Source: Dasypus novemcinctus
Lineage: Eukaryota; Chordata; Mammalia; Cingulata; Dasypodidae
Assembly: GCF_030445035.2 (NCBI RefSeq)
Contig: NC_080694.1
Span: 72,369,147-72,433,146 of the forward strand
Length of the DNA: 64,000 nucleotides
Reading direction: 5' to 3'
The translations under genes were made by a program, and so were the position numbers. Position 1 is the stretch's first letter. Every line of letters begins with the position of its first letter. The notes beneath the pieces were generated by a model. The model was not told where the DNA came from. It searched no databases and saw only the letters and a list, made by a program, of their open reading frames with translations. Positions 23,926-25,675 of this stretch are shown here, piece by piece.

Positions 23926-23943
23926 TCAGCAGAGGGCACTTTT
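23926..23943 (+). repeat. Left target-site duplication of the retrocopy
   Basis: TCAGCAGAGGGCACTTTT here against TCAGCAAAGGGCAATTTT at 25,646-25,663, 16 of 18 bases the same. The empty site in copy B, near 40,572-40,592, reads 'ccctgagtaaagggtattttt'. On the minus strand the junction is a T/AAAA-type site, as cut by L1 endonuclease. Confidence 0.85.
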
Positions 23944-25645
23944 TTTTTTAGTGTTCTAATTTTTTATTATTAATTTTTTATTAGTGTAGTTGTAGGTTTA
24001 CAGAAAAATCATAGTATACGAGTTACCATCTACTACTTCCCCACATACAGGTGCATCTTTGAGGTACCTTTGTTGCAGTGGATGAAATATTATTATACTA
24101 CTGACTACTAGCCATAATTTATATTAGGGTTCATCCTTTGTGTTGTATAGTTCTATTCTGGTAACATACATACAACCTAAAATTAATCATCTTAGTCACT
24201 TTTAAGTATATAATTCAGTGGTGTTAAATACATTAACAATGTTGTGCTCCATTCATTACCAAAACATTCCCATCACCCCAAACAGATAATCTGCACCAGT
24301 TGTGCATTAATCCCCATTGCCCCCACCCCTGTTCTTGGTAACCTGTATTCTAATTTCAGACTATTAATTTGCTTATTCTTATTATTTCCTATAAGTTTGA
24401 TCATATAATATTCGATCTTTTGTCTCTGGCTTATTCCACTCAACATGCTGTCTTCAAGGCTCATCCATGTCACATGTATCAGCACTTCACTCCTTTTTAT
24501 AACTGAATATTATTCCATTGTGTGTGTACACACACACACACACACACAACATTTTGTTGATCCATTCTAACATTGGTGGACATCTGGGTGGCTCACCACC
24601 ACTTCTTTCCTAAGGTCATGAGGTCCCGAGCCAATCTACCTTCTCTTTACATTTCAGATTCTTCTTATATTTATGTTATATAAAATCCAGGGTTTTTAGT
24701 TGTACTTAGCTGGAGGAATAGGGAAAAGTATACCTACTCCATCTTCCTAGATGCAGAAGTCCCTATTATTTTAACAGCCTCTTAAGTAAGTTTTCTTTCT
24801 TAGCTCAATCTTCGGCCTCATTTACAGTGTTCTAAGTACAGTCAATTCCTCTGTCATTAGAATATGCAATGTAAATCAGGATGCTTTTAGCTGTTGCTAT
24901 AGAAAACTTAGAATCCAACTTTCTTAGGCCTACTAAGCTACTACCACTTTTTATCTGCTTTTTAAAATCTGCTTTATATCTTCCAGGATTTGTTGTCTCC
25001 TTTCCCATTCTTTTTGCCCTTCATTATCTTTTCAAAAGTTCCTTTGCTGATTGCTTGGTGGAGGACTCTCAACCAATATACTAACAAAAGGGATAGACGC
25101 TTCTTCATATTTAACAAAGAATAACTCAGGATTAGTCTTCCGGACTCCCAGCCATTTGTCTTTTAATTTTAATTTTTCTGATAGATATTTGCCCATAGCC
25201 TCATCAGCATCTCTGCCTTACAGCCCAGGAGCACCTGGCCGCACTACAGCGCCACCTTCTCGTCCCGCCACATCGCCCGCATGGACGACACGCGGAGAGG
25301 GGACAGCGGCGGCGCCTCCTCTTCATCTTCCCCGGGCACCAAGAGAAGACGCTCCTCTTCCACCTCCTCCTCCTCGGCCCCCTCCGACGAGCCCTCGTCC
25401 TGAGACCGGCGGGAGCTGGAACCGCCGCCGGGCCGCCTTGCGGCCGGCCTTCCCCTTCGCAGGGAGAGGGGAGGCCACTACCGACCGCACCGGGCACGCG
25501 GTGCTCTTCAGGGTCACCCCTTCACCGTGTCCCCAGTGGGCACGACAACCACCTTGTCTCCTGCTGGGGCTGATGGGTCGGACCGAGTCCTCAGGTACTG
25601 CAGCCCTGGACGCCCATGCCATCCCTTCGGGACCCCGAGGGCCTG
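23944..25645 (-). pseudogene. SHCBP1L: Retrocopy of a chimeric SHCBP1L-L1 transcript
   Basis: A processed copy of a spliced mRNA, read on the minus strand. SHCBP1L is a testis-expressed spindle-associated protein of spermatocyte meiosis. From 25,645 there is a short leader, then ATG at 25,622 with [38 protein letters not shown], an acidic EEEEVEEE tract, [30 protein letters not shown] and [18 protein letters not shown], ending at about 25,068. This is about 185 codons in the order and spacing of the human N-terminus, without introns. After ILVE the match stops. About 300 bp of unknown sequence follow (24,765-25,067), then an L1 5' UTR-like piece (24,600-24,764) and an L1 ORF2 tail plus 3' UTR with terminal A run (23,944-24,600). 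Breaks include a TAG in place of the Tyr codon after DEKVAL, a 1-nt loss before the MGKYL block ([13 protein letters not shown]) and at least two earlier frame changes. Near-matching 18-bp repeats flank the whole unit. Confidence 0.8.
24520..24549. repeat. (AC)n microsatellite inside the L1-derived part
   Basis: TGTGTGTGTACACAC followed by an AC run. It lies in the ORF2-tail part of the retrocopy, where L1s read 'attccattgtatgtatatacc', so it is an expansion within the element. Confidence 0.9.
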
Positions 25646-25675
25646 TCAGCAAAGGGCAATTTTAGAACTGTGGAG

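Follow-up and report, generated by a model that had tools for sequence, protein, structure and literature searches.

Processed pseudogenes were reportedly presented in 2006, in work on "genomic fossils", as witnesses of unknown splice forms. Retrocopies of microRNA host genes preserve the parent's 3' ends and splice sites along with its alternative exons (PMC7692494), and a processed pseudogene of TMF1 in intron 1 of CYBB goes back to a truncated transcript that is missing from the annotation and has an Alu in its new 3' UTR (PMC5199112, PMC4859970). Host transcripts take splice sites, and reportedly also poly(A) signals, from intronic L1s (PMC2176070), and 5' transductions of host sequence by SVA elements occur (PMC4859970).

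The insertion considered here lies in a 64,000-nucleotide stretch of the genome of Dasypus novemcinctus, referred to as the window, and is almost certainly the retrocopy of a spliced, polyadenylated SHCBP1L mRNA whose alternative last exon contains an L1. All features of the window described below are on the minus strand.

The insertion and its target site

An earlier note on this DNA had described one insertion with near-identical 18-bp repeats inside an olfactory receptor pseudogene, and this description holds. Window positions 23926-25663 form a single insertion edged by an 18-bp direct duplication, of which the 5' copy (25646..25663, AAAATTGCCCTTTGCTGA) is identical at 16 of 18 positions to the 3' copy (23926..23943, AAAAGTGCCCTCTGCTGA). 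The receiving pseudogene is recognised on either side by the Pfam family 7tm_4 and, for the 5' part, also by its paralogues. Its 5' part spans 25646..26444, with E-values of 3.9e-07 for 25646-26185 and of 2e-05, which does not reach the family cut-off, for 26112-26444, and its 3' part spans 23652..23943 (E 1.5e-09 for 23652-23963). When the flanks in the window were joined computationally and aligned with the 11 best-ranked receptor paralogues among the genome matches (L035-L045), an unbroken alignment piece spanned the junction in all 11. Both the duplication and, in these paralogues, the empty site are observed. The target is printed as a single copy for 10 of the 11 paralogues, with base differences among them; the motif search did not pick up L040. 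The closest paralogue, which is 86% identical over the 5' flank, is without the insert. In seven of the 11 the receptor alignments split elsewhere, about 50-120 bases off on the 5' side, where the receptor copy of the window has a tandem array.

This array (25691-25775) has a period of 27 and 3.1 copies, is separated by about 28 bp from the 5' copy of the duplication, and is not seen in the printed stretches of the receptor paralogues. At 40638-41337 (C36:72409784-72410483) the window has another receptor of this group, which shares 79% identity with the receiving copy. A reading frame at window positions 22562-22786 (IHFGALIYHMDYSLHCSLHSPP) resembles one in the sequence L031 (sense strand, around 1656-2033; IHFGALLHHMDNSLHSNLHSPP), which is probably due to a shared old repeat.

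On the sense strand of the insert, the insertion site reads TTCT|AAAA, which corresponds to TTTT/AGAA on the nicked strand. The nick consensus of the L1 endonuclease is TTTT/A, and the target site agrees with it.

Parental exons, splice joins and the L1 component

In a search of the whole source assembly (3.61 Gb, 546 contigs), the insert matched, besides itself and L1 repeats, three collinear minus-strand blocks on contig C24. BLAST over 76 kb of this contig placed window 25646-25216 at C24:63643564-63643126 (91.3% identity), 25218-25068 at C24:63641572-63641421 (96.1%), and 25069-23949 at C24:63632454-63631326 (95.5% over 1129 columns, gaps counted). With three blocks in order and identities of 91-96%, chance can be excluded.

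A reconstructed human SHCBP1L protein query gave eight tblastn blocks in order on the same strand of C24, from 63643540 down to 63581438, with 67-95% identity; query residues 262-377 were without a block, and the C24 stretch has two runs of N. Translated, the first three parental blocks match Pfam SHCBP_N (E 1.4e-26) and the last four, with overlaps trimmed, match the right-handed beta helix family (E 8.1e-15), whereas a PDB search with the first three gave no match. The parent is presumably SHCBP1L, a name based on the reconstructed probe and on Pfam domains that are not specific to this gene.

As had been predicted, the SHCBP1L part of the insert maps to exons at its own locus, namely exons 1 and 2. 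The copy of exon 1 (25217..25645) starts some 22 nt before the ATG and ends at the exon-1 donor, and its positions 25644-25217 are 93.0% identical to C24:63643561-63643127 over 427 compared sites. The copy of exon 2 (25068..25216) corresponds to C24:63641570-63641421 (149 sites, 96.6%). The rest of the insert corresponds to one last exon, C24:63632452-63631326, which is equipped with an acceptor and an L1-supplied poly(A) signal. Parental intron 2 is 13,657 nt long and the next SHCBP1L exon starts at about 63627763, so that this 1.13-kb block lies within intron 2. The last exon opens with a 304-bp part without L1 sequence (24764..25067). This part aligns to intron 2 from 63632452 onwards (304 sites, 94.7%), and its only two matches in the genome search are parent and copy. 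The prediction that the unknown and L1 parts would be found in a downstream intron was thus correct for intron 2, but instead of the spaced blocks that had been expected, one contiguous last exon was found, because the L1 had already been internally deleted in the parent.

Both joins are canonical in the parent. The exon 1-2 join has the donor AAG|GTGAGG and the acceptor CTTTTTTTTCCCCTAG|GCA, and the join between exon 2 and the last exon has the donor GAG|GTAAAT and the acceptor TTCTCTTTATTTCCAG|AGT. Both parental introns are precisely absent from the copy at these GT/AG sites, and the copy has the form of the spliced product. The mRNA rebuilt from the parent measures 1713 nt, with a 22-nt 5' UTR, an intact 202-codon open reading frame and a 1082-nt 3' UTR; the frame ends in the last exon, which supplies its final 14 codons. 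Upstream, the parental sequence is 77% GC over 300 nt, a composition only suggestive of a promoter.

The copy retains an ATG and, for about 185 codons, text that resembles SHCBP1L. The earlier reading of an intronless SHCBP1L N-terminus is therefore right as to the start codon, the text and the missing introns, but the text is not continuous. Compared with the parent, exon 1 of the copy carries deletions of 5, 1 and 2 bases (a 1-base insertion at the 5' edge depends on the chosen bounds), and exon 2 carries a 1-base deletion; a TAG stop is also present. Because of the frameshifting deletions and the stop, the copy is regarded as dead. Pfam and PDB searches with its broken SHCBP1L pieces yielded non-significant matches or none, and Rfam gave no match over the window at gathering scores.

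The L1 component has two pieces. An old L1 5'-end piece (24588..24763, the boundary at 24588 being approximate) is common to four genomic copies (L005-L008), which match over 137-191 columns at 71-82% and then diverge in their continuation. It is followed by an ORF2 tail, a 3' UTR and an A-rich end with two AATAAA (23960..24587, approximate bounds). Among the best 40 of 11192 candidates, an 820-base query over both pieces found 38 further genomic places at 70-77% identity, all of them on the tail side only, and the four matches that a self-comparison of the window gave besides itself are likewise all to the tail part. Pfam found no family in three L1 sibling pieces; a PDB search matched one of them, in that the reading frame of the tail copy L028 corresponds to residues 1190-1239 of the LINE-1 ORF2 protein chain 9k6g (E 7.4e-13).

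The inner join of the two L1 pieces lies at C24:63631983-63631974 (window about 24587-24600), where the 5' end meets the ORF2 tail with a GGTGG microhomology. Its two matches in the genome search are parent and copy, and no L1 family with the same inner join was found in that search. Since the pieces adjoin in the parent too, the internal deletion predates the copying. In spliced L1s (SpIRE-like), the deleted segment is bounded by a GT donor and an AG acceptor. Read by eye, the join accommodates GT/AG if one additional base and one substitution are allowed, and the GGTGG microhomology, which the sibling copies suggest, fits also. The deletion may stem from a splice within the L1 RNA, the lesser fit of the two, or from a jump. 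For the parental L1 (C24:63632220-63631320), two candidate target duplications can be picked out by eye, TTAGAACACT or TTAAATAATA/TTAATAATA. The first copy of TTAGAACACT stands some 60 bp before the L1 start and would leave that much non-L1 sequence between them, while TTAAATAATA/TTAATAATA adjoins the L1.

At the 3' end, two AATAAA signals in the A-rich end of the L1 precede the end of the last exon by 28 and 14 nt. The flank TTAGAACACT, between this A-rich end and the cleavage site (23950..23959), is the same in the parent up to C24:63631327. After it, the parent reads ATCTTCTGTGACT and the copy a run of A; likewise, after TTAGAACACTA, the parent continues with TCTTCTGTGACT where the copy reads A. 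The short run of 10 A (23940..23949), probably the poly(A) remnant, stands where the parent has ATCTTCTGTGA; its first A may be templated and its last four may belong to the target site, so that up to five in all are possibly templated or target. As the parent is non-A beyond the end of the copy, most of the run is untemplated. Parental intron 2 contains 33 AATAAA; the hexamer alone therefore proves little, and it is the end position of the copy that marks the site used.

Origin of the insert

The collinear blocks, the GT/AG joins, the end past AATAAA and the untemplated As point to a spliced, polyadenylated mRNA as the source. Transcription would have started from the SHCBP1L promoter, exon 1 would have been spliced to exon 2 and exon 2 to the alternative last exon within intron 2. 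Cleavage and polyadenylation, of which the A run would be the remnant, would have followed just past the L1, which is old, internally deleted and in sense orientation and which contributes AATAAA from its A-rich end. L1 enzymes, acting in trans, would then have copied the mRNA nearly end to end, presumably in the germ line, and target-primed reverse transcription would have inserted the product at the TTTT/A site within a copy of an olfactory receptor gene. The earlier note had arrived at the same kind of source, SHCBP1L first exons spliced to an L1-containing terminal exon, and the C24 blocks, the GT/AG joins and the AATAAA 14 and 28 nt before the end bear it out. The outcomes that had been named beforehand as speaking against this reading did not arise: an L1 does lie in intron 2 of the parent, and the copy needs no separate insertions.

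Gene and L1 sequence could also have been fused by template switching, if reverse transcription begun on an L1 RNA had jumped to an SHCBP1L mRNA. The U6-L1 chimeras are fusions of this kind, in one orientation and with a target duplication, and the insert shares their gene-L1 layout, single orientation and target duplication. The join, however, coincides exactly with the donor of exon 2 on one side and an intact acceptor in intron 2 on the other, and the entire last exon, L1 included, is one block in SHCBP1L intron 2; a switch would not yield this. Template-switch chimeras join unlinked loci without splice sites; here one locus and spliced joins were found, and this origin is extremely improbable. 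Equally slight is the probability that one or two L1s landed here independently of a SHCBP1L fragment lacking introns. A 15-nt repeat (23945-23959 and 24821-24835, 87% identical) is readable as a private target duplication of the L1, but the repeat core and the inner join of the L1 are also present in parental intron 2, so that an insertion of this kind must have taken place in the parent, ahead of the copying. Independent insertions were rejected on account of the contiguous parental block.

A spliced 5' transduction, in which the L1 was the mobilised unit and, with the SHCBP1L promoter upstream, carried two host exons along, would involve the same molecule and the same end product, with the 3' end taken from the L1. 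From the mRNA origin preferred here, it differs mostly in naming. The parental L1, however, keeps only a 5'-end piece and an ORF2 tail and could not have encoded the enzymes; a transduction is very unlikely.

Age, copy number and relation to known systems

Over 1118 sites, the last exons of parent and copy differ, in two concordant counts, by 27 transitions and 16 transversions (96.2% identity), which gives a K2P distance of 0.040 with an SD of about 0.006; outside CpG sites, the distances are 0.047 for exon 1, 0.021 for exon 2 and 0.036 for the last exon. With both sequences drifting at assumed rates of 1.5-2.5 per billion sites per year, the divergence of the last exon suggests an age of about 8-13 million years. 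Another count (non-CpG K2P of 0.047 for the last exon and 0.051 for all exons), in which the exon bounds were off by one, was set aside for the per-exon comparison, which also agrees with the BLAST identity; a K2P of 0.047 for the last exon would lift the age by a fifth. The published retrocopies of Dasypus novemcinctus have no peak of very young copies (PMC13251070), with which this age is in keeping.

A whole-genome protein search gave nine rows, seven for parental exons and two on the copy, neither of the latter going past exon 2. At its sensitivity, no canonical or other SHCBP1L retrocopy was seen; the search scores the best candidates only and skips very common words, so that a weak second retrocopy could escape it. 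No earlier report of this retrocopy was among the matches listed in the literature searched, and "SHCBP1" is absent from the main text of the xenarthran retrocopy paper (PMC13251070). The sole SHCBP1L retrocopy detectable in that protein search is thus the L1-ended form and not the canonical one. It seems rather unlikely, as a general rule, that an intron-derived L1 3' end improves a host mRNA as a substrate of the L1 enzymes and that intronic L1s thereby bias which isoforms are retrocopied. Where transcript data are not at hand, a retrocopy can preserve the 5' end, the splice joins and the poly(A) site of a transcript that ended at an intronic L1. If every retrocopy of a genome were mapped in this way, the result would be a list of isoforms terminated by an L1, among them some that have ceased to be made, and such a survey would test whether the copying of L1-ended mRNAs exceeds expectation.

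Like the pseudogenes of the "genomic fossils" work, the SHCBP1L copy is a witness of a parental splice form. MAST2-SVA reportedly became a many-copy subfamily, whereas the SHCBP1L-L1 insert is a single copy. SVA 5' transductions (PMC4859970) share with it the joining of upstream host sequence to a retroelement 3' end that is then retrotransposed. In the TMF1 pseudogene, reported by de Boer et al. in 2014 and described in PMC5199112 and PMC4859970, the element is an Alu and the case a new human disease case, while the SHCBP1L copy is old and has an L1 at the end of its last exon. The microRNA-host retrocopies are likewise records of parental transcripts; their parents are microRNA genes, and the passages considered describe no L1-terminated exon (PMC7692494). 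The exonization of intronic L1s was demonstrated with mouse cDNAs (PMC2176070), whereas the SHCBP1L transcript is known from its genomic copy alone and its acceptor lies outside the L1. The event thus has precedents, and the present case adds to them one nearly end-to-end genomic record in which two exons of the host gene are joined to a last exon that ends in an L1.
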